Virus record (IMG/VR): IMGVR_UViG_3300034071_003005
Span: 1-26,236 of that record
DNA: 26,236 nt
Source of the DNA: a virus
Direction: 5' to 3' (one strand)
The notes below the pieces were generated by a model. The model did not search any database and was not told the DNA's origin. It worked only from the letters and a program-made list of their open reading frames with translations. The translations under genes were made by a program, and so were the position numbers. Of this stretch, positions 2,445 through 24,747 are shown piece after piece; positions within the stretch are counted from its first letter, which is position 1, and each line of letters starts with the position of its first letter.

Positions 2445-4349
2445 ATGTCAAAATATACTATTTGTGTAACTAAACCAGAATATTGGCAAGAAATACACGA
2501 AACTCTTTGTGGGATTTCTTCATGTGAGCATGTGCCCGATAGAGAGGTGATTTGTTGTGACGAAAAATTGCATAGTCCAACTAGAGGGACTTTTGAACTT
2601 GATGAACATGAAGCAGAGGCATTAAAAAATCATGAAATGATAGAGTGGATTGAATTATCTCCAACAGATCACCCCGAAGCATATCCTAAACCACAACCAG
2701 CAACAAAAAGATTTAAAAGCAGCGTAAAAATTTATAGAGATTTAGATACTAATGGACCACCTACAACAAATCCAACTCAAAGTGAGGATCGTAGAACTAA
2801 TTGGGCAATTAAAAGAGTAGGAATAAAAACAAATGGCGATTTTTGGAGTGGTGTAACCGGTGAACTAGCAGTAAAAAATGATGATGTGAGTTATAGTCTT
2901 ACTGGAAAAAATGTTGATATTGTAATTCATGATTCTGGAGTTCTTCAGTATCACCCAGAATTTTTGCAAAACAATGGACAATCTAGAGTTAGGGACATTG
3001 TTTTGGATGGACCATATCACATTGACCCTAGTTATTTTGATAATGTAATACCTGGAGTTAAGTATACAAAAGCAGATGGTAGAGTGGGAATTGCAACAAC
3101 TGCTGCATCAGAATGGTGGGGAGACGGCACAAAAAGGTCAGCACAATTTGCATCCATAGGAACTATAACAATTCCAGGTTCGTACACCCAAAATAATGCT
3201 ATGGGTATTGGTGGGACAACAAATGGACTATCAAGTGGTCACGGAACTGCTTGTGCAGGTCTTGCTGCAGGTAAAAACATGGGATTGGCTTTTGAGGCAA
3301 ACATTTGGAATATGCCTGGTATATCAGATAATGTCGGTATGGAGATTGAAGCAAATTATAACCTAATGAAACTTTTTCACAAATATAAACCAGTTAATCC
3401 ACAGACAGGAGTTAAAAATCCAACTGTTGTAAATGGTAGTTGGACATATCAAGCTGGATTTTATAGTAGCAGTACTGTACAATATCAATTTAGAGGGAGT
3501 GTTGATACTTTTATTGGAAATGCTGCAGTCACGAACCAAGTTACTGCAATGAAAGCGGGATTAGTTAATCAGGTTTTGGGTGCACATAGAACTTGGTCAA
3601 CTTCTTCTCGTTCAAGTTCTACAAATACTGCTGCTGATGAAATGATGGCAGAAGGAGTTATTTATGTTGCTGCAGCAGGAAACTACAATCAAAGACTAGG
3701 AATAGGTGTTAATGATCCGGATAGATTTAACTATATGTCAGATACATTATTTTCAGTTGGAGATCCTAGGTTTGGTGGAATAAATTGCCCATGCAATCAT
3801 CGTGATTGGATGAATCCACATGGAATTGGATTCGATTCCACGAATGATTTTCATCCAGTTATTTGCGTGGGTGCAATGGATGATACTGTAAATTCCGATT
3901 ATTCTGAGAGAAAAGCATTTTATTCAAATAATGGTCCTGGAATTGATGTTTGGGCGCCAGCAGATGAAACATTAGCACCAGGAACGAATTCAGTAAGTGG
4001 TTATGAAGATTATCAAAGATATGATGACACAAGATTTTATGATTGTTATTTCAACGGAACTTCTGCTGCTGCACCAGTAGTTGCAGGATTAGTTGCAGTA
4101 TATCTCCAAACAAATCCAAAGGCAACATCAGTACAAGTTAAAGATTGGTTGAAAATGCGTGGATCTGTTGGAGTTTCTACTGGATTATACCAAGACCAAT
4201 ATATTGATGATACAACAACTACCTACTGGACTGGTCAATATAATATGAGAGGTGCTGAAAAAAGAATTTTATATAATCCATATGCAAATGACACTGCCCC
4301 ATTGATGAGTGGTGTAAACATTTCTGGTATATCATTTTCACAAACCTAA
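2445..4349 (+). CDS. Subtilisin-like serine protease (S8 family) with I9-like propeptide, in the fibre module
   Basis: This 634-aa protein has the complete subtilase catalytic set: Asp163 in VDIVIHDSG, His266 in SSGHGTACAGLAAG, oxyanion Asn413 in VAAAGN and Ser540 in FNGTSAAAPVVAG. Residues 1-75, ending in ELDEHEAEALKNHEMIEWIE, resemble the inhibitor-I9 propeptide that folds and inhibits subtilisins until it is cleaved. No signal peptide is seen, so it probably acts inside the infected cell or as a virion protein. The insert between Asp163 and His266 is long. The gene starts 1 nt after the fibre stop codon and is followed by another fibre-like gene, so co-expression is likely. Plausible roles are maturation of neighbouring fibres or digestion of host surface proteins; both are inference. 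Subtilase-domain proteins are known in phage structural clusters, but the substrate here cannot be read from sequence. Confidence 0.88.
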   Translation: MSKYTICVTKPEYWQEIHETLCGISSCEHVPDREVICCDEKLHSPTRGTFELDEHEAEALKNHEMIEWIELSPTDHPEAYPKPQPATKRFKSSVKIYRDLDTNGPPTTNPTQSEDRRTNWAIKRVGIKTNGDFWSGVTGELAVKNDDVSYSLTGKNVDIVIHDSGVLQYHPEFLQNNGQSRVRDIVLDGPYHIDPSYFDNVIPGVKYTKADGRVGIATTAASEWWGDGTKRSAQFASIGTITIPGSYTQNNAMGIGGTTNGLSSGHGTACAGLAAGKNMGLAFEANIWNMPGISDNVGMEIEANYNLMKLFHKYKPVNPQTGVKNPTVVNGSWTYQAGFYSSSTVQYQFRGSVDTFIGNAAVTNQVTAMKAGLVNQVLGAHRTWSTSSRSSSTNTAADEMMAEGVIYVAAAGNYNQRLGIGVNDPDRFNYMSDTLFSVGDPRFGGINCPCNHRDWMNPHGIGFDSTNDFHPVICVGAMDDTVNSDYSERKAFYSNNGPGIDVWAPADETLAPGTNSVSGYEDYQRYDDTRFYDCYFNGTSAAAPVVAGLVAVYLQTNPKATSVQVKDWLKMRGSVGVSTGLYQDQYIDDTTTTYWTGQYNMRGAEKRILYNPYANDTAPLMSGVNISGISFSQT

Positions 4350-4366: not shown

Positions 4367-5473
4367 ATGGCTGATAAGAGTTTTGGCGTAAAGCAATTAA
4401 ATTTAATCGGTGCTTCTGGAACTCCAACCATTACAAGCCCCAATGTTTTAAATTTAAATGCAACAACTGTTGCAATTAGTACAGACATTTCTATTGGAGG
4501 TCAAGTATCTTCCAATATTCTTGTAGGTAGTGCATATTCAGTTGGAATAGGAACAACATCTCCAAAAGCAAAACTCCATGTCGTTGGTGTTGTTTCCGCA
4601 ACCTCTTTTTATGGTGATGGTTCTCAACTGACAGGGACTGGAGGCGGAGGTTCTGGAAAGTTTGATACCGGAATTTCAACATCAATATATGTTTCAATTA
4701 CCTCAGGTATTGCAACTGGTATTGGAACACCGGGAATTTCGACTGCCAATTCTCAACTTATTAGAAATCTTAATATTTTTCTTGGACCTGGAATTGCATA
4801 CAGTTTTCCTTCCACATCAGGAGTAGAATATGTTGTAGAATCTATTCATATTTGCAATAAATCTGGAAATGAATTATATGTTAGTGGGAGACATGATTAT
4901 AATATATCAGCAAATACTTGGAATTCTGTTCCGATTGCAAATAAAGTTATTGTCCCATATCAAGGTGCATTAGAACTTTTAGAACAGCCAACTGTTGCTA
5001 ATCCTTCAGATATTATAAGATTACAAGCATTAAGTGGAGTCGGAACAAATGCAACTGGGGTTGATGGTGGTCTTGAGGCTTTTATAGTATATTCTAGAAA
5101 AACCGACACTAATTTTGTTGGAATTGGCACAACAATTACTGCAGTCGGCACAGGAACCACAACTCCAACAGAACAAGAAGTTTTTGTTTCAACCACAAAC
5201 CCTTCAGTCATTCAATCAATACATCTAGCAAATTATAGTGATAGTATTGATGTTGATGTGTCAGTTTCAATTTTTAGAGGAGGAACTGTAGGTCAAATAG
5301 CAACGACTGGTATTCGTCAAGGTTATCTTCTATATAATCTAACTGTTCCCAAAAATTCCACAATTGAAATTTGCGAGAAACCAAAATATCTTGCAAAGAA
5401 TGATTCAATTGTAATAACTTCAAGTTCATTTGGAACAGTTGGTGTTACAGTTGCAGGAAAATATATAGCGTGA
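4367..5473 (+). CDS. Fibre-like virion structural protein with GIGTT/KLHVVG motif
   Basis: This 368-aa Gly/Thr/Ser-rich protein opens with MADKSFGVKQLNLIG and carries one VGIGTTSPKAKLHVVG motif (about residues 60-75), the motif found four times in the upstream fibre gene. It then has SFYGDGSQLTGTGGGG, a typical phage fibre linker. The C-terminal two thirds are beta-rich and contain two similar halves (SVIQSIHLANYS and YVVESIHICNKS), suggesting two related jelly-roll-like domains. No catalytic motif is visible. A role as a virion fibre or neck/collar component is inferred from motif and position. The start is the only ATG near the front, 17 nt after the previous stop. Confidence 0.7.
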   Translation: MADKSFGVKQLNLIGASGTPTITSPNVLNLNATTVAISTDISIGGQVSSNILVGSAYSVGIGTTSPKAKLHVVGVVSATSFYGDGSQLTGTGGGGSGKFDTGISTSIYVSITSGIATGIGTPGISTANSQLIRNLNIFLGPGIAYSFPSTSGVEYVVESIHICNKSGNELYVSGRHDYNISANTWNSVPIANKVIVPYQGALELLEQPTVANPSDIIRLQALSGVGTNATGVDGGLEAFIVYSRKTDTNFVGIGTTITAVGTGTTTPTEQEVFVSTTNPSVIQSIHLANYSDSIDVDVSVSIFRGGTVGQIATTGIRQGYLLYNLTVPKNSTIEICEKPKYLAKNDSIVITSSSFGTVGVTVAGKYIA

Positions 5474-5498: not shown

Positions 5499-6077
5499 AT
5501 GTTTAGTATTAAGCATAGGAATTTATTTCCTACCGATTTTTATTTTGTCGATGTTTACAATCAAAAAGAAAATGAAAGTTATAAAAAAGAACTTTTAAAT
5601 CTTTCATTATCTCATAAAGGGGTTGTTCATAGTAACAGAAATGGGTGGCAAAGCGAAAATACTCTTTGGCAAAACGAAGTATTTAAACCACTTCTAGAAA
5701 AATCCTCTCATATTGTTCAGTCAATTATTTCAGATATTTCTTCAAATCGCCCAGAATTTGTAATTAGATCTATGTGGGGAAATATCAATCCCAAAGGTGG
5801 TTATAATTTTACTCATGTTCATCCGACTGGTTGGATAAGTGCTGTATATTATGTTTCTCTTCCAAAAAATTCTTCATTAATTACTTTTGAAGATCCGAGA
5901 CCAGCAAAACTAATGGATTTTCAAAATAATTGCTTAGTAAATAACAATCATTATACACACCAACCTGAAGTTGGTCAATTAATTTTATTTCCTTCTTGGT
6001 TACCTCATTTTGTAGATGCAAATCAAAGTAATGAAGAGCGTATTTCAATCTCATTTAATGTGGAGCTATTAGTATAA
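5499..6077 (+). CDS. 2OG-Fe(II) oxygenase-like protein
   Basis: The 192-aa protein matches the small 2-oxoglutarate/Fe(II) oxygenases common in cyanophages (the 2OG-FeII_Oxy_5 / TIGR02466 type). Visible signatures are the FTHVHPTGWISAVYYVSLP block (His106, His108), EDPR near residue 131, FPSWLPHFV with His160, and Arg171 in RISISFN, the usual 2-oxoglutarate-binding position. Such enzymes hydroxylate proteins or small molecules; the substrate is unknown. The stop codon overlaps the next ATG (TAATG at 6075-6079), so it is translationally coupled to the glycosyltransferase. It is the first of three oxygenases around the kelch genes, which suggests virion or glycan modification. The family call is firm and the function is not. 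Confidence 0.8.
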   Translation: MFSIKHRNLFPTDFYFVDVYNQKENESYKKELLNLSLSHKGVVHSNRNGWQSENTLWQNEVFKPLLEKSSHIVQSIISDISSNRPEFVIRSMWGNINPKGGYNFTHVHPTGWISAVYYVSLPKNSSLITFEDPRPAKLMDFQNNCLVNNNHYTHQPEVGQLILFPSWLPHFVDANQSNEERISISFNVELLV

Positions 6078-6736
6078 TGTCAGTTTTAATTGCAATGCCT
6101 TGTTATGGCGGAATGGTAAGTGATAAGACTGCTAAAGGTCTTTTTAATCTTGGAAAAGAATTAAGAACTGCTGGAGTCGATCATGGTCTTTTGACGATGG
6201 CAAATGAAAGTCTAGTAACAAAAGCACGTTCAAGAATCTCAAATTTTTTCATAAACAATACAGAATACGAAAGAATTTTGTTTATTGACGCTGATGTTGG
6301 GTTTACTCCAGAAGATGTTTTTAAATTGTTAATATCAAACAAAGATATTGTTTGTGGTGCATATCCAATGAAAGGAATACCTTTGAGGTACAACTACAAT
6401 ATCTCAAACCCAGAAGTTTCTGAAGGAGAATTGCTGAAGATTGAAAATATTGGATTTGGGTTTGCATTGATTCACCGTAAAGTTTTTGAGAACATTCAAC
6501 ATAAATATGGTGAAGAACTAAAATATTTTCCAGCAACAAATAATAGTTCATATCCACCAACAGAGAAAGAATATCACAATTCATACCATTACTTTCTTGA
6601 ACTTAAAAAAAATATGAGTTATTTGCCAGAAGACTTTTCATTTTTTGAACGAGCAAAAAGTGTTGGGTATACTGCTTGGTTAAATACTTCTATACGATTA
6701 TCCCATGTTGGTTCTCACGTTTATTCAGAAGAGTAG
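6077..6736 (+). CDS. GT-A type glycosyltransferase
   Basis: This is a 219-aa protein with a GT-A fold pattern: an MSVLIAMPCYGG first strand, the metal/sugar-nucleotide DxD motif FIDADVGF (Asp71, Asp73), an acidic PEDFSFFERAKSVGY segment of the kind that usually carries the catalytic base, and a closing LSHVGSHVY histidine motif. It would transfer a sugar from a nucleotide donor; donor and acceptor cannot be told. It overlaps the oxygenase by one base and precedes the first kelch gene by 4 nt, so all three probably share one transcript. Modification of the adjacent virion proteins is a reasonable inference. Acting on host surface glycans is an alternative. Confidence 0.82.
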   Translation: MSVLIAMPCYGGMVSDKTAKGLFNLGKELRTAGVDHGLLTMANESLVTKARSRISNFFINNTEYERILFIDADVGFTPEDVFKLLISNKDIVCGAYPMKGIPLRYNYNISNPEVSEGELLKIENIGFGFALIHRKVFENIQHKYGEELKYFPATNNSSYPPTEKEYHNSYHYFLELKKNMSYLPEDFSFFERAKSVGYTAWLNTSIRLSHVGSHVYSEE

Positions 6737-6740
6737 GTAA

Positions 6741-8630
6741 ATGGCAATCGGAGTTTTTGGTCTTAAAAAAGTTTATAAAAGACAATTACTAAATGTAGAC
6801 AATAAAAACTTCGCAAGTTGGCCAGAAGGTGGTCTTTATGGATATTATGGTGGTGGTGAGGTTTATCTTAATGTTTATGTTTGCACTATAGACCGTTTAG
6901 ATTTCTCTACAGAAACCGTAACAACTCCAACCCCTAAGTTATCTCAAGCAAGATGGTCTTTAACAGCAGTCTCAAGTAGTTCTTATGGTTACTTTAGTGG
7001 TGGTTTTTCCCCCAGTGTTCCTGGTAATGTTTGCACCATAGACCGTTTAGATTTCTCAACAGAAACTGTAACAACTCCAGGACCTCAGTTATCTCAAGCA
7101 AGAAGAGTTTTAGCAGCGGTCTCAAGTAGTTCTTATGGTTATTTTGCTGGCGGTTTTAATCCTACTCCTATTAGAGTTTGCACTATAGATCGTTTAGATT
7201 TCTCTACAGAAACCGTAACAACTCCAGGACCTAAGTTATCTCAAGCAAGATCTGCTTTAGCAGCGGTCTCAAGTAGTTCTTATGGTTATTTTGGTGGTGG
7301 CACATTTCCAACTCCTTTTTATGTTTGCACTATAGACCGTTTAGATTTCTCTACAGAAACCGTAACAACTCCAACTCCTCAGTTACGTATATATTTTAGC
7401 AGTCATGCAGCAACCTCAAGTAGTTCTTATGGTTATTTTGGTGGTGGTAACATTAGTTTTTGGACAAGTAGAATAGACCGTCTAGATTTCTTAACAGAAA
7501 CCGTAACAACTCCAACCCCCAAGTTATCTGGATCAAGAGAGGGTTTAGCAGCAGCCTCAAGTAATTCTTATGGTTATTTTGGTTCTGGTCTCAGTCTTGG
7601 TTTTACTCCTCCTGGTTATGTTTGCATCATAGACCGTTTAGATTTCTCCACAGAAACCGTAACGACTCCAGGACCTAAGTTATCTCAAGCAAACCGAAAT
7701 TATGCAGCAATCTCAGGAGGTCAAGCAGCACAAAGAGTTGGTGGAAATCCTACTTATGGTTATTTTGGTGGGGGTTATGTATTTTTTAATTATATCTGTA
7801 CCATAGACCGTTTAGATTTCTCAACAGAAACCGTAACAACACCAGGACCTCAGTTATCTCAAGCAAAAGGTGATTTAGCAGCAACTTCAAGTAGTTATTA
7901 TGGTTATTTTGGTGGGGGTTATGCTTCTACTCAAGTTTGCACAATAGTCCGTCTTGATTTCTCTACAGAAACCGTAACAACACCAGGACCTCAGTTATCT
8001 AGAGCAAGATATAGTTTAGCAGCAGTCTCAAGTAGTTATTATGGTTACTTTGGTGGTGGTAAAATTTTCTCACCTCCTACTTATTTTTGTACCATAGACC
8101 GTCTTGATTTCTCTACAGAAACCATAACAATACCAAGTTCCAAATTGGAAAGTACATCAAATTTTGCAGCAACTGCAAGTAAACTATATGGATATTTTGG
8201 TGGGGGAGAAAATAATAGTTTTGCTGCTCTAAGCACAATACAAAAATTTAATTTCTCAACAGAAACAAAATCAGTATTGAGCAGTAATTTATCTCAATTA
8301 ACAAATTCTTTATCTGCAACGTCAAATAATTCTTATGGGTATTTTGCTGGTGGTAACAATTCCCCCCCTAACTACTCTACAATAGACCGTTTAGATTTCT
8401 CAACAGAAACCGTATCAACACCAGGACCTAAGTTATCTCAAGCAAGAGGTTATTTAGCAGCAACTTCAAGTAATTCTTATGGTTATTTTGCTGGTGGTTT
8501 TATAGTTGATTTAAGTTCTATGGTTTGCACCATAGACCGTTTAGATTTCTCAACAGAAACCGTATCAACACCAGGACCCAAGTTATCTCAAGCAAGAAGA
8601 GGTTTAGCAGCAGTCTCAAACTCAAAATAA
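6741..8630 (+). CDS. Kelch-repeat virion protein, paralog 1 (12 repeats, 6+6)
   Basis: This 629-aa protein is almost entirely kelch-like repeats of 45-62 residues with the pattern YGYFGGG-(variable loop)-CTIDRLDFSTETVTTPGPKLSQAR-x-x-LAAVSSSS. I count twelve. Repeats 1-6 are separated from 7-12 by an extra SGGQAAQRVG segment at residues 325-334, so the likely structure is two six-bladed beta-propellers. The first ~33 residues (VFGLKKVYKRQ then NVDNKNFASWPEGGLYGY) are shared with the two paralogs and may be a virion anchor. Nothing follows the last repeat, so the ring is probably closed by the N-terminal YGY strand. The post-GGG loops differ in length and sequence, as expected for a binding face. 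Repeats 4, 5, 9 and 10 are degenerate. A receptor-binding or decoration role is inferred; the repeat family is directly visible. Confidence 0.85.
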   Translation: MAIGVFGLKKVYKRQLLNVDNKNFASWPEGGLYGYYGGGEVYLNVYVCTIDRLDFSTETVTTPTPKLSQARWSLTAVSSSSYGYFSGGFSPSVPGNVCTIDRLDFSTETVTTPGPQLSQARRVLAAVSSSSYGYFAGGFNPTPIRVCTIDRLDFSTETVTTPGPKLSQARSALAAVSSSSYGYFGGGTFPTPFYVCTIDRLDFSTETVTTPTPQLRIYFSSHAATSSSSYGYFGGGNISFWTSRIDRLDFLTETVTTPTPKLSGSREGLAAASSNSYGYFGSGLSLGFTPPGYVCIIDRLDFSTETVTTPGPKLSQANRNYAAISGGQAAQRVGGNPTYGYFGGGYVFFNYICTIDRLDFSTETVTTPGPQLSQAKGDLAATSSSYYGYFGGGYASTQVCTIVRLDFSTETVTTPGPQLSRARYSLAAVSSSYYGYFGGGKIFSPPTYFCTIDRLDFSTETITIPSSKLESTSNFAATASKLYGYFGGGENNSFAALSTIQKFNFSTETKSVLSSNLSQLTNSLSATSNNSYGYFAGGNNSPPNYSTIDRLDFSTETVSTPGPKLSQARGYLAATSSNSYGYFAGGFIVDLSSMVCTIDRLDFSTETVSTPGPKLSQARRGLAAVSNSK

Positions 8631-8633
8631 ATA
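8626..8633 (+). promoter_or_regulatory. Candidate late promoter core (AATAAATA)
   Basis: AATAAATA matches the cyanomyovirus/T4 late core NATAAATA and includes the TAA stop of the first kelch gene. It sits 21 nt before the ATG of the glycosyltransferase-FkbM gene, leaving a leader of roughly 15 nt. Confidence 0.5.
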
Positions 8634-8654
8634 AAACAACTATATGATTATCAT

Positions 8655-10331
8655 ATGAAATCTGGAGCAACTGAGAGTTGTTTTTATTATCTTGCTCAAC
8701 ATTATAAATTCCCAGAAAATGTTGACGTAAAGAGAACAACTTACGAAATTATACAATCAAATAAGCAATATAAGATTATTTGGGCACACGATAACTGTGA
8801 CCAAGCAGGACACGCAACACTTCCTCAACACATAGACAAAATTGATAAAATTGTTTGCGTATCTAACTGGGAAAGAGAGCAATATATCAAATACAATAGG
8901 GCTCCTGCAGAGAAACTTGTAGTTATTCCGAATGGCGTGGATGACACGTTCCGCCCATCAGTAAAATCAAAATCAAAAACTTGTATATTTTTCTCCGCAC
9001 CACATAAGGGAATTTCACCATTAGTTCCAATCTGGAAAGAAGTCATTAAGCACCATCCAGATGCAAAACTCAAGGTCTTTTCTTCTATGTCTCTTTATGG
9101 AGATATTCAACCAGGAGAAGGTGACAATGAGACAATTACAACCGATAAGGGACTAGAACCTTCTCCATTTATTCCCATCTACAAGGAACTTCAATCACTT
9201 CCAGGCGTAGAATATTCACCTTGTATTGATCGTGAAGAATTATTACCTCATATTCAGGATGCTGCGTTTTATATTCATCCTAATATATGGGAGGAGACCT
9301 TTTGTGTCTCATTAGCAGAGGCAATGTCCTGCGGATGTTTCCCGATTACGACTGATATGGGAGCACTTCCAGAAACATCAAATGGAATGGGCAAATATAT
9401 TCCAATGTCGGGACAGAACACTCTAAGGGGATGGATTACTGATGATACATTCCATCAAAACTTTGCAGAGGAAGTAATAAGAGCCCTACATTTCTTTGAT
9501 GTTGCAAAAGATGAATACGACCAAGCATCTTCAGCAATTTCAAAGTTTGCTGTTGAATCTTATAATTGGGAAAAGGTATCAAAATTATGGAAAAATTTAA
9601 TCAATAATATTACAAATAATGTTGATATTTTTGATGGAAAAAATATTCAAACTCTAGAAGATTATTATGAATGGTCTTCAAATATAAATATGGTTCCGTC
9701 AAAACACATTGATTATCTTTATCGCTTAAAGTATAAGCACAACTTTGAACCAAAAGTAATTTATGATATTGGTTCTGCAGTTCTTCATTGGGCAAAGTTT
9801 GCATCGTGTATATGGAATAATACTGAGTTTTATTGTATTGATGGATTTTCTGGATATGAAACTTTATATCAAAAAAATCAATTAAGATATGCAATTGAAG
9901 TACTAAGTGACGAACAAAAAGAGGTTACTTTTTATGAAAATTTAAAAAATATTGGCAGTTGTTCTTATTATGAAATGAACTATAAGGATTTTCCACATAA
10001 CTTAGAGTTTAAAAATAGTCCTTATTATCAGGAAAGAAAAGTTATTACTCAAACACTTGATAATTTGATTGAAAAAAGAAATTGGAAACTTCCTGATTTG
10101 ATCAAAATGGACATTCAGGGATGTGAACTTGATGTATTAAAAGGTGCAGAAAAGACTCTTGAATATTGTAATCATCTTATCCTGGAACTTCAAAGCAAAC
10201 AATATATGAAAGATGCCCCACTTAATCAAGATGTGATTTCATATCTCGAACAAAAAGGATACACTCTCATTTCTCATTTTGTTCAAAATCCAAGTGGTGC
10301 TGATGGGGACTATCACTTTATGAGAATTTGA
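8655..10331 (+). CDS. GT4-type glycosyltransferase fused to FkbM-type methyltransferase
   Basis: This is a 558-aa bifunctional protein. Residues 1-~315 are a GT-B glycosyltransferase of the GT4 kind, with VIPNGVDDTF (near 90) and the E-x7-E donor motif in EETFCVSLAEAMSCG (Glu204, Glu212). Residues ~365-550 are a FkbM-family SAM-dependent methyltransferase: VIYDIGSA (near 368) as the SAM-binding start and DLIKMDIQGCELDVLKGAEK (near 471) as the family hallmark. FkbM enzymes O-methylate sugars or natural products, so adding a sugar and then capping it by methylation is a plausible combined activity. The N terminus is short for a GT4 enzyme: it begins at the GATESCFYYLA helix with no preceding Rossmann strand, and no better in-frame start was found. 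It lies between kelch paralog 1 and the 289-aa unknown. Confidence 0.87.
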   Translation: MKSGATESCFYYLAQHYKFPENVDVKRTTYEIIQSNKQYKIIWAHDNCDQAGHATLPQHIDKIDKIVCVSNWEREQYIKYNRAPAEKLVVIPNGVDDTFRPSVKSKSKTCIFFSAPHKGISPLVPIWKEVIKHHPDAKLKVFSSMSLYGDIQPGEGDNETITTDKGLEPSPFIPIYKELQSLPGVEYSPCIDREELLPHIQDAAFYIHPNIWEETFCVSLAEAMSCGCFPITTDMGALPETSNGMGKYIPMSGQNTLRGWITDDTFHQNFAEEVIRALHFFDVAKDEYDQASSAISKFAVESYNWEKVSKLWKNLINNITNNVDIFDGKNIQTLEDYYEWSSNINMVPSKHIDYLYRLKYKHNFEPKVIYDIGSAVLHWAKFASCIWNNTEFYCIDGFSGYETLYQKNQLRYAIEVLSDEQKEVTFYENLKNIGSCSYYEMNYKDFPHNLEFKNSPYYQERKVITQTLDNLIEKRNWKLPDLIKMDIQGCELDVLKGAEKTLEYCNHLILELQSKQYMKDAPLNQDVISYLEQKGYTLISHFVQNPSGADGDYHFMRI

Positions 10332-10338
10332 TTTTTAA

Positions 10339-10346
10339 CATAAATA
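10339..10346 (+). promoter_or_regulatory. Candidate late promoter core (CATAAATA)
   Basis: CATAAATA fits the late core NATAAATA and lies in the only real gap of this operon (10332-10386), 40 nt before the ATG at 10387. That start also has a GGAG ribosome site at 10379-10382. Confidence 0.5.
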
Positions 10347-10386
10347 AAACAAATGAACTGAAGTTCTCTTAATTCTACGGAGTATT

Positions 10387-11256
10387 ATGTCTGAAACTTA
10401 TAAGGATATTGCACTTGCTAAAGCAGATGATGTTTTAGATAGTGGTAATGAGTTTATGTTTAAAGTTTATAATGAGTGTATGAAGTGGGAGAAAAGTGAA
10501 AAAGAACTTGCATCAAGTCGTTCAAATTTCCAAATTGAAAAGTTCGTAATTCATGATAACTTTACTATTCCTTCTGCGTTCAAAGCAGCAATTATTAATC
10601 GAAAGAGTGTTGCTGAAGGATTGCTTCAAGGTATTCAAGAAGCAAAAAGAATTGCAAGGGAGTTTCATTTTAAGTGGGACGGAAAAGATAAGACACAACC
10701 AATCTGGTGGAAAAATGGAAGAGGTGGGGAAGAACTTTGCTGGTATGATATTGATGAGTTTAATTTTCACCGTCTTATTCATGGTCTAAATCAAGGATTT
10801 CAGTCTCAAGTTGATGAACTTGAGTTTTTTGATAAATTGATTAAAAGATTAATTGAAATGAATGGTGGACAACTAATCACCAAAGAACAATATGATGCAG
10901 ACCAACCAGAATACTGGGAACGTCGTCTTGCAAACCAATCTCTGGATGATTTACTTGCTGCAAGAACTGGCGTAAATGCAGGCAATATTCGTTCTATGAG
11001 ACGTGCAAGTGCTCCTACAGTATTACCTGATGATGTGAATAGAACAAAAGGAACTTTTGGTGATCCCACAGATCCGATTAGTTTCCTAAATGCACTTCAA
11101 GACCACGTAGCAAAAGGTATTGAGGAAATCAGTGGATTGTCAAATATTTTTGCAGACAAATCCGAAGAAACAAAATTGATAGAGCAAGGTGAGCAATCAC
11201 AACCAATTCCTAAACTTTCTTTGTTTAATGAAAAACTTAAGCAAAATGTAGAGTAA
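10387..11256 (+). CDS. Unknown 289-aa protein, probably structural or assembly-related
   Basis: I do not recognise this family. The protein is soluble, with no signal peptide or membrane segment. It has a largely helical N-terminal half (residues 1-~100), a Trp-rich patch (WKNGRGGEELCWYDIDEFNFH, about residues 108-128) and a mixed C-terminal half with VLPDDVNRTKGTFGDPTDP followed by a charged tail. It has its own late promoter candidate and a good GGAG site, and it ends 5 nt before the second kelch gene. The context suggests a fibre accessory, chaperone or virion protein. Nothing in the sequence proves an enzyme activity. Confidence 0.6.
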   Translation: MSETYKDIALAKADDVLDSGNEFMFKVYNECMKWEKSEKELASSRSNFQIEKFVIHDNFTIPSAFKAAIINRKSVAEGLLQGIQEAKRIAREFHFKWDGKDKTQPIWWKNGRGGEELCWYDIDEFNFHRLIHGLNQGFQSQVDELEFFDKLIKRLIEMNGGQLITKEQYDADQPEYWERRLANQSLDDLLAARTGVNAGNIRSMRRASAPTVLPDDVNRTKGTFGDPTDPISFLNALQDHVAKGIEEISGLSNIFADKSEETKLIEQGEQSQPIPKLSLFNEKLKQNVE

Positions 11257-11261
11257 AAAAA

Positions 11262-13130
11262 ATGCAAGGGGATGTATTCGGTTTAAATCGTATTTACGAA
11301 CAACAGGTTAGAAATGTAGAGAATAAAAACTTTGCAAGTTGGCCTGAAGGTGGTCTTTATGGTTATTTTGGTGGTGGCACCCCCAATGGTCTTGCTCAGG
11401 TTTGCATCATAGATCGTTTAGATTTCTCTACAGAAACCGTAACAACACCAAGCCCTAAATTAAATCGAGCACTAAGTAATTTATCCGCAGTCTCAAGTAA
11501 TTCTTATGGTTATTTTGGTGGAGGTTCTTTTTCACCACCCACAACAGCTGTTTGCACTATAAACCGTCTAGATTTCTCCACAGAAACCGTAACAACATCA
11601 ACACCTCTTAATTTAACCAGAGCAGTTAGTTCAACTGCAGCATTATCAAATAGTTCCTATGGTTATTTTAGTGGAGGTATAAGACCTGTTGCATCCGGTG
11701 GTCCAACAATTTATGCAACAGGAGATAGATTAGATTTTTCTTCGGAAACATTGTCCAATTCTTTCGTTGTAAGTGGTCCATCATATGGTCATGCAGCAAC
11801 TTCAAGTAGTTCTTATGGTTATTTTGGATCTGTTGGCAATAACGGATTTCAATCTAGCACTTTAAATCGTTTTGATTTTTCCACACAAACAGTATCAATA
11901 CCAGGACCTAAGTTGTCTTCAGATAATCTTCAGTTATCAGCAACCTCAAGTAATTCTTATGGTTATTTTGGCGGAGGTCTTACGCCAACTGTTCGTGTTT
12001 GCACCATAGACCGTTTAGATTTCTCTACAGAAACCGTAACAACACCAGGACCTAAGTTATCTCAAGCAAAAGATAACTTAGCAGCAACCTCAAGCAATTC
12101 TTATGGATATTTTGGTGGTGGCACATCTCCAGTGACTTGCACCATAGATCGTCTAGATTTCTCCACAGAAACCGTAACAACTCCAGGACCTAAGTTATCT
12201 CAAGCAAGATCTAGTTTAGCAGCAATCTCAGGAGGTCAAGCAGCACAAAGAGTTGGTGCTGCTACTTATGGTTATTTTGGTGGTGGTACTTATTTTGGTT
12301 CGTTCGTATGTATTATAGACCGTTTAGATTTCTCTACAGAAACCGTAACAACACCAAGTCCTAAGTTATCTCAAGCAAAAAATGGTTTATCAGCAACCTC
12401 AAGTAATTCTTATGGTTACTTTGGTGGTGGTTATTCTCCTCCCATTTATCTTTGCACTATAGACCGTTTAGATTTCTCTACAGAAACCAGAACAACACCA
12501 GGTCCTAAGTTATCTCAAGCAAGAAGCAATTTAGCAGCAACCTCAAGTAGTTCTTATGGTTACTTTGCTGGTGGGTTTGTTCCCAGTGTTCCGGGTATTG
12601 TTTGTACCATAGACCGTTTAGATTTCTCTACAGAAACCGTATCAACTCCAACCCCTAAGTTATCTCAAGCAAGATTAGAGTTAGCAGCAACCTCAAGTAG
12701 TTCTTATAGTTATTTTGGTGGTGGTACAGGTCCTGTTTGCACTATAGACCGTTTAGATTTCTCTACAGAAACCGTAACAACACCAGGACCTAAGTTATCT
12801 CAAGCAAGATCTAGTTTAGCAGCGGTCTCAAGTAGTTCTTATAGTTATTTTGGTGGTGGTTATCTTCCTGGTAGTGTTTGCACCATAGACCGTTTAGATT
12901 TCTCTACAGAAACCGTAACAACACCAGGACCTAAGTTATCCCAAGCAAGAGGTTATTTAGCAGCAGTCTCAAGTAGTTCTTATGGTTACTTTGGTGGTGG
13001 TTATGAGGGTTTTGTTGGTAGTATTTGCACCATAGACCGTCTTGATTTCTCTACAGAAACCGTATCAACACCAGGACCTAAGTTATCTCAAGCAAGAGAA
13101 TTTTTAGCAGCAACCTCAAATTCAAACTAA
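11262..13130 (+). CDS. Kelch-repeat virion protein, paralog 2 (12 repeats, 6+6)
   Basis: This 622-aa paralog of the 6741 and 13962 genes again has twelve repeats, with SGGQAAQRVG at residues 323-332 between repeats 6 and 7. The N-terminal block NVENKNFASWPEGGLYGY is retained. Repeats 2-4 are the most divergent of all 36 in the window (for example GDRLDFSSETLSNSFVV and FGSVGNNGFQSSTLNRFDF), while repeats 5-12 are close to consensus. Repeats 10 and 11 carry YSYFGGG instead of YGYFGGG. The gene starts 5 nt after the 289-aa gene and is followed after 4 nt by the sulfotransferase. The three paralogs may be alternative or jointly assembled host-range proteins; this is inference. Confidence 0.85.
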   Translation: MQGDVFGLNRIYEQQVRNVENKNFASWPEGGLYGYFGGGTPNGLAQVCIIDRLDFSTETVTTPSPKLNRALSNLSAVSSNSYGYFGGGSFSPPTTAVCTINRLDFSTETVTTSTPLNLTRAVSSTAALSNSSYGYFSGGIRPVASGGPTIYATGDRLDFSSETLSNSFVVSGPSYGHAATSSSSYGYFGSVGNNGFQSSTLNRFDFSTQTVSIPGPKLSSDNLQLSATSSNSYGYFGGGLTPTVRVCTIDRLDFSTETVTTPGPKLSQAKDNLAATSSNSYGYFGGGTSPVTCTIDRLDFSTETVTTPGPKLSQARSSLAAISGGQAAQRVGAATYGYFGGGTYFGSFVCIIDRLDFSTETVTTPSPKLSQAKNGLSATSSNSYGYFGGGYSPPIYLCTIDRLDFSTETRTTPGPKLSQARSNLAATSSSSYGYFAGGFVPSVPGIVCTIDRLDFSTETVSTPTPKLSQARLELAATSSSSYSYFGGGTGPVCTIDRLDFSTETVTTPGPKLSQARSSLAAVSSSSYSYFGGGYLPGSVCTIDRLDFSTETVTTPGPKLSQARGYLAAVSSSSYGYFGGGYEGFVGSICTIDRLDFSTETVSTPGPKLSQAREFLAATSNSN

Positions 13131-13134
13131 TATT

Positions 13135-13962
13135 ATGAAAACTTTTTATTTTATGTCTGGACTTCCTCGTTCAGGTTCGACTTTATTATCAGCATTATTC
13201 AATCAAAACCCAGAAATACACGCATCCACAAATTCTCCCCTCTTAGACACAATACATTATACTGAAGAGTATCTTTTATATAATTCGGAACAATATAAAG
13301 CACATCCAAAACCAGAGTGTGCTAATAAAGTTTTATCTTCCATAGCACCCAATTATTATTTTAATACTCCACAAAATATTATTATTGATAAGTCAAGAGG
13401 GTGGGTCAATCAAATACAACATATTAAAGATTATATTACGGAAGAACCAAAAATTATTTGTTTAGTAAGAGATATTCAAGATATTTTAGTTTCTTTTCTT
13501 TCTTTGATTGAAAGAAGCAATACAATTTCATTTGTTGATAAAGGTTTGATAAGCAATTACATTGAAATTACAAATGATAATCGTTGCGATTATCTTATGT
13601 CACCTCAGGGTATTATTGGAATGTCCTATAATGCACTTTCAGAAGCATATCGTAAGGGCAATCAAAGACATTTATTACTTGTAGAGTATGACAATTTAGT
13701 TCAGAACCCACAAAAAGAATTGAATAGAATTCATCAATTTTTAAATATTTCTCATTTCTCTTATGACTTTCTTAACATTAAACCAAAGTTTAAGGAGAAC
13801 GATTCAGTTTATAATTTACATGATATGCATAAGGTGAGAAACAAAGTTCAAAAAGTATATAAAGATAATACAAAGTATCTTAGTGATTATATTATGAATA
13901 AATATAATCACATGGAGTTTTGGCGTAACATATCTCCAAGGTATTCTATATTTGGAATCTAA
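13135..13962 (+). CDS. PAPS-dependent sulfotransferase
   Basis: This 275-aa protein has both hallmarks of the sulfotransferase fold. The 5'-phosphosulfate loop is SGLPRSGSTLL (residues 8-18). The 3'-phosphate site is CLVRDIQDILVS, with Arg112 and Ser120 in the usual R-x7-S spacing. VEYDNLVQNPQKELNRIHQFL near residues 188-208 is also typical of the family. It would move sulfate from PAPS to a hydroxyl on a sugar, tyrosine or other acceptor; the acceptor is unknown. It sits between kelch paralogs 2 and 3 and overlaps the latter by one base (TAATG), so the two are translationally coupled. Sulfating a glycan built by the neighbouring glycosyltransferases, or the kelch proteins themselves, is a reasonable hypothesis. 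Confidence 0.88.
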   Translation: MKTFYFMSGLPRSGSTLLSALFNQNPEIHASTNSPLLDTIHYTEEYLLYNSEQYKAHPKPECANKVLSSIAPNYYFNTPQNIIIDKSRGWVNQIQHIKDYITEEPKIICLVRDIQDILVSFLSLIERSNTISFVDKGLISNYIEITNDNRCDYLMSPQGIIGMSYNALSEAYRKGNQRHLLLVEYDNLVQNPQKELNRIHQFLNISHFSYDFLNIKPKFKENDSVYNLHDMHKVRNKVQKVYKDNTKYLSDYIMNKYNHMEFWRNISPRYSIFGI

Positions 13963-15809
13963 TGGCTGGTATATTTTCTCTTAGAGAAGTTAGAACAGAG
14001 CAAATAAAAAATGTAGACAATAAAAACTTCGCAAGTTGGCCAGAAGGTGGTCTTTATGGTTATTTTGCTGGCGGTTTTAATACTACTCCTATTAGAGTTT
14101 GCACTATAGATCGTTTAGATTTCTCTACAGAAACCGTAACAACTCCAGGACCTAAGTTATCTCAAGCAAGATCTAGTTTAGCAGCGGTCTCAAGTAGTTC
14201 TTATGGATATTTTGGTGGTGGCACATTTCCAGCGACTTGCACCATAGACCGTCTCGATTTCTCAACAGAAACCGTAACAACTCCAGGACCTCAGTTATCT
14301 CAAGCAAGAAGAAATTTAGCAGCAACCTCAAGTAGTTCTTATGGTTATTTTGGTGGTGGTTATGCTCCGGGTATTGTTTGTACCATAGACCGTCTCGATT
14401 TCTCTACAGAAACCGTATCAACTCCAACCCCTAAGTTATCCCAAGCAAGAGAGGGTTTAGCAGCAGTCTCAAGTAGTTCTTATGGTTATTTTTGTGGTGG
14501 TTATCTTTTCTCACCTACTACTTATTTTTGTACCATAGACCGTCTTGATTTTTCTACAGAAACCGTAACAACACCAGGACCTCAGTTATCTCAAGCAAGA
14601 TATGGTTTAGCAGCAACTTCAAGTAGTTCTTATGGTTATTTTGGTGGTGGGGGGACATCTACACCACGATCCACCAGAGAACGTTTAGATTTCTCTACAG
14701 AAACAGTAACATCATTAACAACACCCACATCTCGGTTTGTAGAAAGATTAGCAGCAACCTCAAGTAGTTCTTATGGTTACTTTGGTGGTGGTATCACTCC
14801 CGCTATTCTTTGTACCATAGACCGTTTAGATTTTTCTACAGAAACCGTAACAACACCAGAACCTAAGTTATCTCAAGCAAGATTTAGTTTAGCAGCGACC
14901 TCAGGAGGTCAAGCAGCACAAAGAGTTGGTGCTGCTACTTATGGTTATTGGGGTGGTGGTGCTACTCCTACTGCTATTACCACCATAGACCGTATAGATT
15001 TCTCAACAGAAACAGTATCAGTACCAACACCTAAGTTATCTCAAGCAAGAAATGATTTAGCAGCAGTCTCAAGTAGTTCTTATGGTTACTTTGGTGGTGG
15101 ATCTGGTCCAGTTTGTACGATAGACCGTCTAGATTTCTTAACAGAAACCGTATCAGTACCAACACCTAAGTTATCTCAAGCAAGACAAGGTTTAGCAGCA
15201 ACCTCAAGTAGTTCTTATGGTTACTTTAGTGGTGGAGTTTTTCCTCCCAATACTAATAGTTCTATAGTAGATCGTCTAGATTTCTTAACAGAAACCATAT
15301 CAGTACCCACACCCAAGTTATCTCAAGCAAGATATGGTTTAGCAACAGTTTCGAGTAGTTCTTATGGTTACTTTGGTGGTGGTGGTGTTCCGGGATCACC
15401 TGGTCTCGTTTGTACCATAGACCGTTTAGATTTCTCTACCGAAACCGTAACAACACCAACACCTAAGTTATCTGAAGCAAGATCTAATTTAGCAGCAACC
15501 TCAAGTAGTTCTTATGGATACTTTGGTGGTGGTTTTGCTTCTACTGGCAGAGGTTGTACCATAGACCGTATAGATTTCTCTACAGAAACCGTATCAATAC
15601 CAACATCTAAGTTATCTCAAGCAAGAAATGCTTTAGCAGCAGCATCAAGTAGTTCATATGGTTACTTTGGCGGTGGGTATTTTACTTTTCCACCTGTCAT
15701 CATTTCAACTATAGATCGTCTAGATTTCTCTACAGAAACCGTATCAACTCCAACCCCCAAGTTATCCCAAGCAAGAGAGGGTTTAGCAGCAGTCTCAAAC
15801 GCAAACTAA
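13962..15809 (+). CDS. Kelch-repeat virion protein, paralog 3 (12 repeats, 6+6)
   Basis: This is the 615-aa third member of the family, again with twelve repeats and SGGQAAQRVG (residues 314-323) after repeat 6. It is the most regular copy; only repeat 5 (RERLDFSTETVTSLTTP) departs strongly from consensus. Repeat 4 has YGYFCGG and repeat 7 YGYWGGG. The N terminus is one residue shorter but retains NVDNKNFASWPEGGLYGY. Bases 14062-14231 (repeats 1-2) are nearly identical to 7141-7310 in paralog 1 (repeats 3-4), a sign of repeat exchange between genes at different blade positions. It begins inside the sulfotransferase stop codon and ends 26 nt before the prolyl-hydroxylase-like gene. Confidence 0.85.
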   Translation: MAGIFSLREVRTEQIKNVDNKNFASWPEGGLYGYFAGGFNTTPIRVCTIDRLDFSTETVTTPGPKLSQARSSLAAVSSSSYGYFGGGTFPATCTIDRLDFSTETVTTPGPQLSQARRNLAATSSSSYGYFGGGYAPGIVCTIDRLDFSTETVSTPTPKLSQAREGLAAVSSSSYGYFCGGYLFSPTTYFCTIDRLDFSTETVTTPGPQLSQARYGLAATSSSSYGYFGGGGTSTPRSTRERLDFSTETVTSLTTPTSRFVERLAATSSSSYGYFGGGITPAILCTIDRLDFSTETVTTPEPKLSQARFSLAATSGGQAAQRVGAATYGYWGGGATPTAITTIDRIDFSTETVSVPTPKLSQARNDLAAVSSSSYGYFGGGSGPVCTIDRLDFLTETVSVPTPKLSQARQGLAATSSSSYGYFSGGVFPPNTNSSIVDRLDFLTETISVPTPKLSQARYGLATVSSSSYGYFGGGGVPGSPGLVCTIDRLDFSTETVTTPTPKLSEARSNLAATSSSSYGYFGGGFASTGRGCTIDRIDFSTETVSIPTSKLSQARNALAAASSSSYGYFGGGYFTFPPVIISTIDRLDFSTETVSTPTPKLSQAREGLAAVSNAN

Positions 15810-15835: not shown

Positions 15836-16495
15836 ATGAATGATTTGCTATCTAATATTTTAATTCAACCAAAAGTAGTTACTAAAGAGAATTGTAAATA
15901 TCTTATTGATTATGCAAATAGTGTAGAGATGGAGCAGATGGGAGTCTTTGATCCCGATAAAACTAATCTCACAAAAGAATCTTCACATAAGGTAGATAAG
16001 TCTTCAAGAGATGTAAAGTGTGCGGATGTAACACCAATACTTCCACAAATTCAAGACTTGATGAAGAATACGATTGATCACATCATCAATCCTTTTTATG
16101 GATTTAAGATACGTGATAGTGAAATGCCTCAACTTCTTTATTATGAAAAAGGAGGTCACTATAAACCTCACTATGATGCAGAAGCGATGTGGACAAATCC
16201 AGATGGTACAAAGATGTGGAAGAAGAGTGTAGATCGGGATCTTTCTACAGTTCTTTTTCTTAATGATGACTTTGAAGGTGGTTATTTTTCTTTTCCAGAC
16301 TTAAGAATTAAAATTAAACCAGAACCAGGTCTTCTTGTTTGCTTTCCTTCTTCAAGATGGTTTAAGCATTGTGTAGAACCGGTTCTTTCCGGTAAAAGAT
16401 ACACTCTTGTAACCTGGATGAGAGTTCAAGGATTTAAAACAAAAGAAGAGCAAGATAAAGAAATAGAAAAAAAATATGGAATTGAAGTTATGTAA
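15836..16495 (+). CDS. Prolyl 4-hydroxylase-like 2OG-Fe(II) oxygenase
   Basis: This 219-aa protein has the P4Hc-type double-stranded beta-helix: Fe ligands His112 and Asp114 in HYKPHYDAEA, distal His178 in SRWFKHCVEPV and the 2-oxoglutarate-binding Arg188 in SGKRYTLVTW, with STVLFLNDDFEGG between them. Phage and bacterial members hydroxylate proline or other protein side chains. The kelch repeats next to it carry a conserved TTPGPKLS or TPTPKLS in almost every blade and are attractive candidate substrates, but this is inference. It is the last plus-strand gene of the operon. A hairpin terminator 32 nt beyond its stop lies inside the convergent gene. Confidence 0.87.
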   Translation: MNDLLSNILIQPKVVTKENCKYLIDYANSVEMEQMGVFDPDKTNLTKESSHKVDKSSRDVKCADVTPILPQIQDLMKNTIDHIINPFYGFKIRDSEMPQLLYYEKGGHYKPHYDAEAMWTNPDGTKMWKKSVDRDLSTVLFLNDDFEGGYFSFPDLRIKIKPEPGLLVCFPSSRWFKHCVEPVLSGKRYTLVTWMRVQGFKTKEEQDKEIEKKYGIEVM

Positions 16496-24045: not shown

Positions 24046-24747
24046 ATGGAAACTCCAAGAGAGTATTATACTTACGCATATTTGCGTGAAGATAGAACAC
24101 CCTACTATGTTGGTAAGGGAAAGGGAAATCGTATATATGCAAATCATCAAAGGGGAATAAGTGTTCCCAAAGATAAATCAAGAATAATCTTCTTAAAACA
24201 AAACATAACAGAAGAAGAAGCATTCAAACACGAAATTTATATGATTGCTGTTTTTGGTAGGAAAGATTTAGGAACTGGTATTCTTCGCGATAAAAGTGAT
24301 GGTGGTGAAGGACCTTCTGGTGTTGTAAGAAGTGAAGAATGGAGAAGGAAAAAAAGTGAAGAAATGATTAAAAGTGGAAAATGGATATGTAGTATTGGTG
24401 GTAAAAAAGCAAAAGAACTTGGATTAGGTATTCACGCACTCACAACAGAAGAACGAAGAGAAATTGGTAAAAAATCAAGTGAAACTAACGAAAAAAATGG
24501 AACTGGTATATATGGAATGACATTTGAACAAAGGAGTAAAAATAGTAAAAGAACAAAAGAACTTGGTTTAGGAGTATTTGCTATGACTGCTGATGAATTA
24601 AGTGAAGTAGGAAAAAAAGGAGCAAAAATAACTAATTCTCAAAGATGGAAATGTACTGAAACTGGTTTCATTTCAAATCCTGGAAGTTTATCAAAATATC
24701 AAAAAGCAAGAGGTATAGACACCTCCAAAAGAGTAAAAATATCATAA
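24046..24747 (+). CDS. GIY-YIG homing endonuclease with C-terminal DNA-binding repeats
   Basis: This is a 233-aa protein. The N-terminal GIY-YIG domain is seen in YYTYAYLREDRTPYYVGKGK (the YxY...YVG pair, residues 8-23), Arg29 in GNRIY, Glu63 in KHEIYMI and GRKDLGTGILRDKSDGGEGP. Three spaced repeats follow at about residues 125-143, 152-169 and 174-191 (GLGIHALTTEERREIGKK, GTGIYGMTFEQRSKNSKR, GLGVFAMTADELSEVGKK), probably DNA-contacting NUMOD-like modules. A WKCTETGFI ... SLSKYQKARGID end resembles the small helix-turn-helix of such enzymes. This matches free-standing phage homing endonucleases (Seg/I-TevI type) that cut related genomes lacking the element and spread by repair. It has its own late promoter and an insulating terminator, as expected for a selfish insertion in an early-gene operon. 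Confidence 0.87.
   Translation: METPREYYTYAYLREDRTPYYVGKGKGNRIYANHQRGISVPKDKSRIIFLKQNITEEEAFKHEIYMIAVFGRKDLGTGILRDKSDGGEGPSGVVRSEEWRRKKSEEMIKSGKWICSIGGKKAKELGLGIHALTTEERREIGKKSSETNEKNGTGIYGMTFEQRSKNSKRTKELGLGVFAMTADELSEVGKKGAKITNSQRWKCTETGFISNPGSLSKYQKARGIDTSKRVKIS

Follow-up and report, generated by a model that had tools for sequence, protein, structure and literature searches.

Kelch proteins with predicted tandem six-bladed propellers in a marine viral genome: candidate receptor-binding proteins with exchangeable modules

The window analysed here is the whole of a 26,236-nucleotide stretch of viral DNA (IMG/VR record IMGVR_UViG_3300034071_003005, positions 1–26,236). It carries genes for three paralogous kelch-repeat proteins, K1 (alpha; 6741–8630, 629 amino acids), K2 (beta; 11262–13130, 622 amino acids) and K3 (gamma; 13962–15809, 615 amino acids). 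Among named viruses the closest is Synechococcus phage S-SKS1 (genus Llyrvirus), which makes Synechococcus or a relative the probable host; the source is a marine phage that probably infects cyanobacteria.

Repeat architecture and repeat numbers

Each protein consists of a front of 31–32 residues, made up of a tag and a cap, followed by exactly 12 repeats of 45–52 residues (the linker left out of the count) with the form YGYFGGG-(variable)-TIDRLDFSTETVTTPGPKLSQARxxLAAVSSSS. The segment NKNFASWPEGG lies directly ahead of repeat 1 in all three. SGGQAAQRVG occurs once per protein, between repeats 6 and 7 (residue 325 in K1, 323 in K2, 314 in K3), and the linker between the two putative propellers is 10–14 residues long (Table 1). 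Features of the kelch superfamily are present in K1–K3, including repeats of about 44–56 residues, a double glycine, kelch spacing and matches to kelch models. Pfam model PF24681 is above its cut-off in all three (1e-15 to 6e-22) and PF13415 in two, and the three proteins belong to PHROG 19111 (phrog_19111; unknown function). Pfam detected no BTB or BACK domain ahead of the propeller in K1–K3, where only the tag and cap stand. Further Pfam matches, to SpdB, VP17 barrel, DUF1883 and FAM183, were short and repeat-driven, and were rejected.

Repeats were counted in relatives from 68 IMG/VR loci (numbered L001 and so on) fetched with K3 as query, every kelch open reading frame (ORF) being segmented by a repeat hidden Markov model (HMM) and near-duplicates removed. 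In this K3-type class, the repeat number is a multiple of six in 70 of the 75 complete genes (6 repeats in two genes, 12 in 53, 18 in 12 and 24 in three); two of the five exceptional genes come from S-SKS1 and are broken up by frameshifts. Linkers stand at junctions 6, 12 and 18. They are of two types, a short SGGxxxxRxGxxTYGY before the last propeller and a longer one, often with W-P-E, before extra propellers. The original prediction, made on the window sequence, had read 12 repeats in each protein with SGGQAAQRVG after repeat 6; segmentation confirms this placement, and 70 of 75 relatives on the rule of sixes show that it is not due to chance. The same prediction had proposed two six-bladed propellers joined by a fixed SGGQAAQRVG linker, a motif to be sought in viral metagenomes with the repeats on each side tabulated. 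The place of the linker stood, always at a multiple of six and never at random repeat positions. The exact motif did not: SGGQAAQRVG is invariant within the window only, relatives keeping its position and a looser pattern such as SGGxxxxR...TYGY, and the double propeller is one case of a series running from one to six.

Two further repeat classes were segmented after removal of identical sequences only, so that their numbers include related copies. The sister class, with DRIDYSNDTATAS repeats, was drawn from 59 loci; repeat numbers of 6, 12, 18, 24, 30 or 36 occur in 41 of its 46 complete ORFs, and long linkers follow every sixth repeat. In the third class (NVIDYITIATTGNATDFGDLT repeats; best 80 loci of 429 relatives), the rule holds for 133 of 135 ORFs, 118 with six repeats and 15 with twelve. 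Natural single-propeller relatives with exactly six repeats thus exist, and the three classes pooled give 244 multiples of six among 256 complete ORFs. Because the counts agree across the classes, the rule is one of whole propellers of six repeats, with one to six propellers per chain. The single-cell virus AG-345-L05 has proteins of 18, 18 and 12 repeats as counted by eye, the repeat HMM seeing fewer in these divergent sequences; its 12-repeat protein has a LamG domain between the halves. A scan with a divergent AG-345-L05 protein gave no matches. No relative of the kelch family was found among GTDB bacterial and archaeal genomes, and a host origin could therefore not be traced.

Predicted fold and exchange of propellers

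An AlphaFold2 model of K3 was built on a 49-sequence alignment (K3 and 48 homologs from the fetched loci). It has a mean predicted local distance difference test score (pLDDT) of 86.9 and a predicted template modelling score (pTM) of 0.57, a pattern that would be expected of two rigid domains without fixed mutual orientation. At E <= 0.001, Foldseek aligned the model with about 1,000 PDB chains. The best matches are solved six-bladed kelch propellers, the kelch domains of KLHL12 and Keap1 among them, with about 283 aligned columns, a root mean square deviation of 1.7 Å, a target template modelling (TM) score of 0.94 and a query TM score of 0.42; about half of the K3 chain is accordingly modelled as one closed six-bladed ring. 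A sequence search of PDB with K3 returned a sole match, the designed kelch propeller SAKe6FR. Both halves open with strand 2 (YGYF) and finish with strand 1 (LAAxS). The final strand of a half can thus complete the ring of that half, and the linker occupies the point at which the chain passes to the next ring.

Since the structure model, the quantised repeat numbers of three classes and the exchange of single propellers at the linker (see below) all bear on it, the folding of K1–K3 into two closed six-bladed kelch propellers in tandem is strongly supported as a prediction. This is the architecture that the original prediction had suggested, and the monomer model run for K3 matches closed six-bladed kelch rings over half the chain, not a 12-bladed ring or an open solenoid.

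Kelch genes diversify faster than their flanking genes, as would be expected of genes for tail fibres or receptor-binding proteins: in near-identical viruses flanking genes are mostly 92–100% identical, and the identity of kelch genes falls to about 50%. Between L049 and L055, propeller 2 of gamma stands out as different in otherwise almost identical sequences. When L048 (nearly identical to L049) is compared with L055, gamma repeats 1–6 are 98, 100, 100, 100, 100 and 98% identical and repeats 7–12 are 45, 43, 53, 35, 49 and 41% identical. Similar identity steps at the junction of repeats 6 and 7, in either direction, are found in the pairs L060/L063, L060/L062, L006/L029, L027/L032 and L025/L030. 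As judged from such comparisons of sequence, whole propellers are shown to be swapped at the linker while the tags stay conserved.

Variation within the repeat is also confined. Per-position entropy is highest in the loop between strands 2 and 3 (positions 8, 9 and 11–13), at the end of strand 4 (27, 30 and 31) and in the strand 4-1 connection (37 and 38), and the turns of the other blade face are conserved. A four-stranded antiparallel blade has its 2-3 and 4-1 loops on one and the same face, which is the ligand face in Keap1. The pattern is that of a constant scaffold with a putative variable binding face.

Tag classes, cap and partner genes

Among the relatives the three paralogs form three orthologous groups, which roughly the first 18 residues distinguish. 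The tag patterns are GVFGLxxVYxxQ (alpha), GDVFGLxxVYxxQ (beta) and IFSLxEVRxxQ (gamma). With class labels taken from the upstream gene, tag identity is 65% among orthologs against 35–41% among paralogs, and the propeller bodies have no class signal (52 against 51%); bodies of paralogs from the same genome (58 and 56%) are more alike than those of orthologs. It is thus the tag that stays stable and marks the class, the bodies undergoing concerted evolution.

The front motif shared by K1–K3 had been proposed as the point of attachment to the virion, a role left unsupported by the finding that 16 of 21 long internal linkers contain the same W-P-E. NKNFASWPEGG was rejected as a specific virion anchor, being a propeller cap that recurs as a linker before internal propellers. 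The class-specific tag upstream of the cap (residues 1 to ~18) is a better candidate for attachment. Sought on non-kelch proteins of the fetched loci, the tag had its sole good matches on kelch-like propellers of the third repeat class.

Each class has a usual partner gene. Alpha usually follows a small glycosyltransferase gene (in two loci a 2-oxoglutarate (2OG) oxygenase gene), gamma usually follows a sulfotransferase gene, and every kelch gene found behind ORF10387 bears the beta tag; exceptions to the usual pairing occur in L032, L034, L066, L038 and L047. A group-1 glycosyltransferase fused to an FkbM methyltransferase domain is also encoded between the kelch genes (8655–10331). From gene position one might guess that the kelch proteins are modified by the neighbouring glycosyltransferases, sulfotransferase and 2OG oxygenases.

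Table 1. Segments of K1–K3 and associated genes in the window
Feature	Position	Strand
K1 (alpha) N-terminal tag GVFGLKKVYKRQ and propeller cap NKNFASWPEGGL	6741..6836	+
K1 propeller 1 (predicted), repeats 1-6	6837..7712	+
K1 inter-propeller linker SGGQAAQRVGGNPT	7713..7754	+
K1 propeller 2 (predicted), repeats 7-12	7755..8627	+
K2 (beta) N-terminal tag GDVFGLNRIYEQQ and propeller cap	11262..11357	+
K2 propeller 1 (predicted), repeats 1-6	11358..12227	+
K2 inter-propeller linker SGGQAAQRVGAAT	12228..12266	+
K2 propeller 2 (predicted), repeats 7-12	12267..13127	+
K3 (gamma) N-terminal tag IFSLREVRTEQ (predicted helix 7-20) and propeller cap	13962..14054	+
K3 propeller 1 (predicted), repeats 1-6	14055..14900	+
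K3 inter-propeller linker SGGQAAQRVGAAT; in the model, coil between strands 311-315 and 327-331	14901..14939	+
K3 propeller 2 (predicted), repeats 7-12	14940..15806	+
Alpha partner, small glycosyltransferase-like protein (phrog_1574)	6077..6736	+
Beta partner, ORF10387, function unknown (weak phrog_1409)	10387..11256	+
Gamma partner, sulfotransferase (PF00685/PF13469)	13135..13962	+
2OG-Fe(II) oxygenase, after the last kelch gene in most loci	15836..16495	+

Proposed role on the virion and related systems

K1–K3 are most likely virion-borne receptor-binding proteins, judging from gene context, domain fusions and an analogous phage protein. The kelch cluster lies downstream of tail-fibre-like genes; the first 81 residues encoded at 4367–5473 are shared with cyanophage proteins that carry the annotation tail fiber or virion protein. 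L094 encodes a fusion of a six-repeat propeller with a glycine-rich region that matches a tail PHROG; the fusion protein also has a weak C-terminal tail-protein match and a tail-type N-terminus read from the translation. LamG-like and Calx-beta-like regions are likewise read from the translation of this long tail-type protein (L094:2087-5209). MAM or LamG-type domains stand C-terminally or between propellers in L032:7843-10434, L086:839-2521 and L078:16838-19585, and such a domain is assigned to L027:2793-5342 by similarity to L032. The kelch protein CBB_552 was detected in virions of phage CBB by mass spectrometry (PMC5259590).

It appears probable that tandem six-bladed propellers on class-specific tags bind receptors on the virion and are swapped as whole propellers. 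Each protein would comprise a class-specific N-terminal tag (a predicted helix), a W-P-E cap and two six-bladed propellers with the linker at ring closure. Each of the three paralogs may be docked by its tag at a separate site near the tail fibres. In every propeller one face, with the hypervariable 2-3 and 4-1 loops, would touch the host surface, probably glycans, and recombination swapping whole propellers would change the binding. A more elaborate version, held tentatively and with less than even confidence, is a combinatorial adhesin kit of exchangeable propellers with antibody-like faces, one to six per chain, whose tags would fill three fixed virion positions and which may be decorated by the products of the interspersed sulfotransferase, glycosyltransferase and hydroxylase genes.

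Several points weigh against this interpretation. Three intact-looking genes, with 17, 16 and 10 repeats, are off the rule. The 16-repeat gene differs by exactly two repeats from an 18-repeat gene in a near-identical contig, and assembly collapse or recent deletion is possible in all three, because exact repeats of 77–111 bases occur in these genes or in their near-identical relatives. For a marine sample, long reads are reported to have contained kelch-repeat proteins about nine times as often as assemblies did, because assemblies are fragmented by repeats (PMC9238414). The Foldseek match covers one half of K3, which half not being stated, and the closing of the rings is a prediction. The AlphaFold2 model of an 18-repeat relative (pLDDT 44, with only 12 similar sequences) was unusable and left out, so the evidence for three or more rings in one chain comes from repeat counts. 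For the K1–K3 family we infer virion location and binding, virion detection being that of the analogue CBB_552 only, and isolate relatives are annotated no further than 'hypothetical protein'.

Among the alternatives, double propellers serving off the virion as intracellular protein-interaction scaffolds, like poxvirus and animal kelch proteins, seem unlikely and yet fit several observations: eukaryotic and poxvirus kelch domains are mostly protein-binding adaptors, those of KLHL12 and Keap1 are among the best structural matches, and the neighbouring genes include both fibre-like ones and ones for modification enzymes. However, K1–K3 lack BTB or any other adaptor domain, a single hypervariable face, together with swapping among near-identical viruses, is in keeping with recognition of surfaces, and the fusions to tail-type, LamG and MAM domains and the position after tail-fibre-like genes point the same way. 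An enzymatic action of the propellers on sugars of the host surface, like that of galactose oxidase or sialate mutarotase (NanM), is very improbable. Kelch folds can be catalytic and the neighbouring genes encode sugar- and sulfate-related enzymes, but variability is highest at the loop positions expected to line an active site, and the window proteins exceed cut-offs for general kelch models only, not for any enzyme-specific one.

Little credence is given to the sixes being merely inherited, by duplication of an ancestral six-repeat unit little changed since, in which case the number would be uninformative on rings. All three repeat classes could stem from one six-repeat ancestor, but the rule holds in three very different classes, and repeats homogenise and a loss of two has occurred between near-identical contigs (or is an assembly error), so non-multiples should be common unless selected against. 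A single 12-bladed ring or open solenoid with the linker as an incidental loop, conceivable on sequence alone since the linker replaces an ordinary strand 1-2 turn, can practically be set aside in view of the six-bladed match over half the chain, the six-repeat relatives, the sixes and the exchange at the linker.

The kelch propeller is a classic fold, and kelch proteins of phages, including virion ones, are already known. K1–K3 share with the KLHL/Keap1 propellers and the designed SAKe6 the six four-stranded blades, the kelch grammar and the fold (match at about 1.7–2 Å), and differ in having at least two propellers per chain, no BTB/BACK, hypervariable loops and a phage origin. Phage kelch proteins also occur in jumbo phages (CBB_550/552/554, PhiPA3 gp360 and those of the Pseudomonas phages Noxifer and Phabio). 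PhiPA3 gp360 (L079:33154-35013; 619 amino acids), which matches several kelch models and adjoins virion structural genes, is probably a double propeller. The CBB proteins examined are of single-propeller size, the jumbo-phage sequences are about 12–20% identical, and the cassette of three tags and partner genes was not seen in the PhiPA3 stretch read. The hypothetical proteins of PHROG 19111 and S-SKS1 are of the same family, and S-SKS1 (L001) has the same cassette; its kelch copies are frameshifted, one running over the record ends, and this sole isolate record thus understates the family. Marine-virus proteins with NVIDYITIATTGNATDFGDLT repeats resemble K1–K3 in their number of repeats (six or 12), and a similar GVW.L...WP tag is present in some. 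They differ in repeat sequence and are mostly single propellers, often encoded by several genes in a row, with other-domain fusions. The literature covered, which took in few subscription journals or preprints, yielded no account of phage proteins with tandem six-bladed kelch propellers, of whole-propeller exchange or of the three-tag cassette.

For most marine phages the receptor-binding proteins are unidentified, and the scaffold described here can be recognised by counting repeats in sixes. By the look of these whole sets of six, the family may be a modular and rapidly changing toolkit with which host cells are gripped. With variable positions known and modules exchangeable, such a scaffold would allow candidates for host recognition to be annotated across many uncultured viruses where they are now 'hypothetical'. 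The family is also a large natural collection of kelch propellers with varied loop faces, near the designed SAKe scaffolds in fold.

Elsewhere in the window, a fibre-like ORF at 2–2443 has tandem repeats of 165 and 396 bases. A gene for a subtilase-family (S8) peptidase, which may be a virion or maturation protease, lies between tail-fibre-like genes (2445–4349). The ORF at 24046–24747 has a GIY-YIG-like N-terminus, read from the translation only, and may encode a homing endonuclease.

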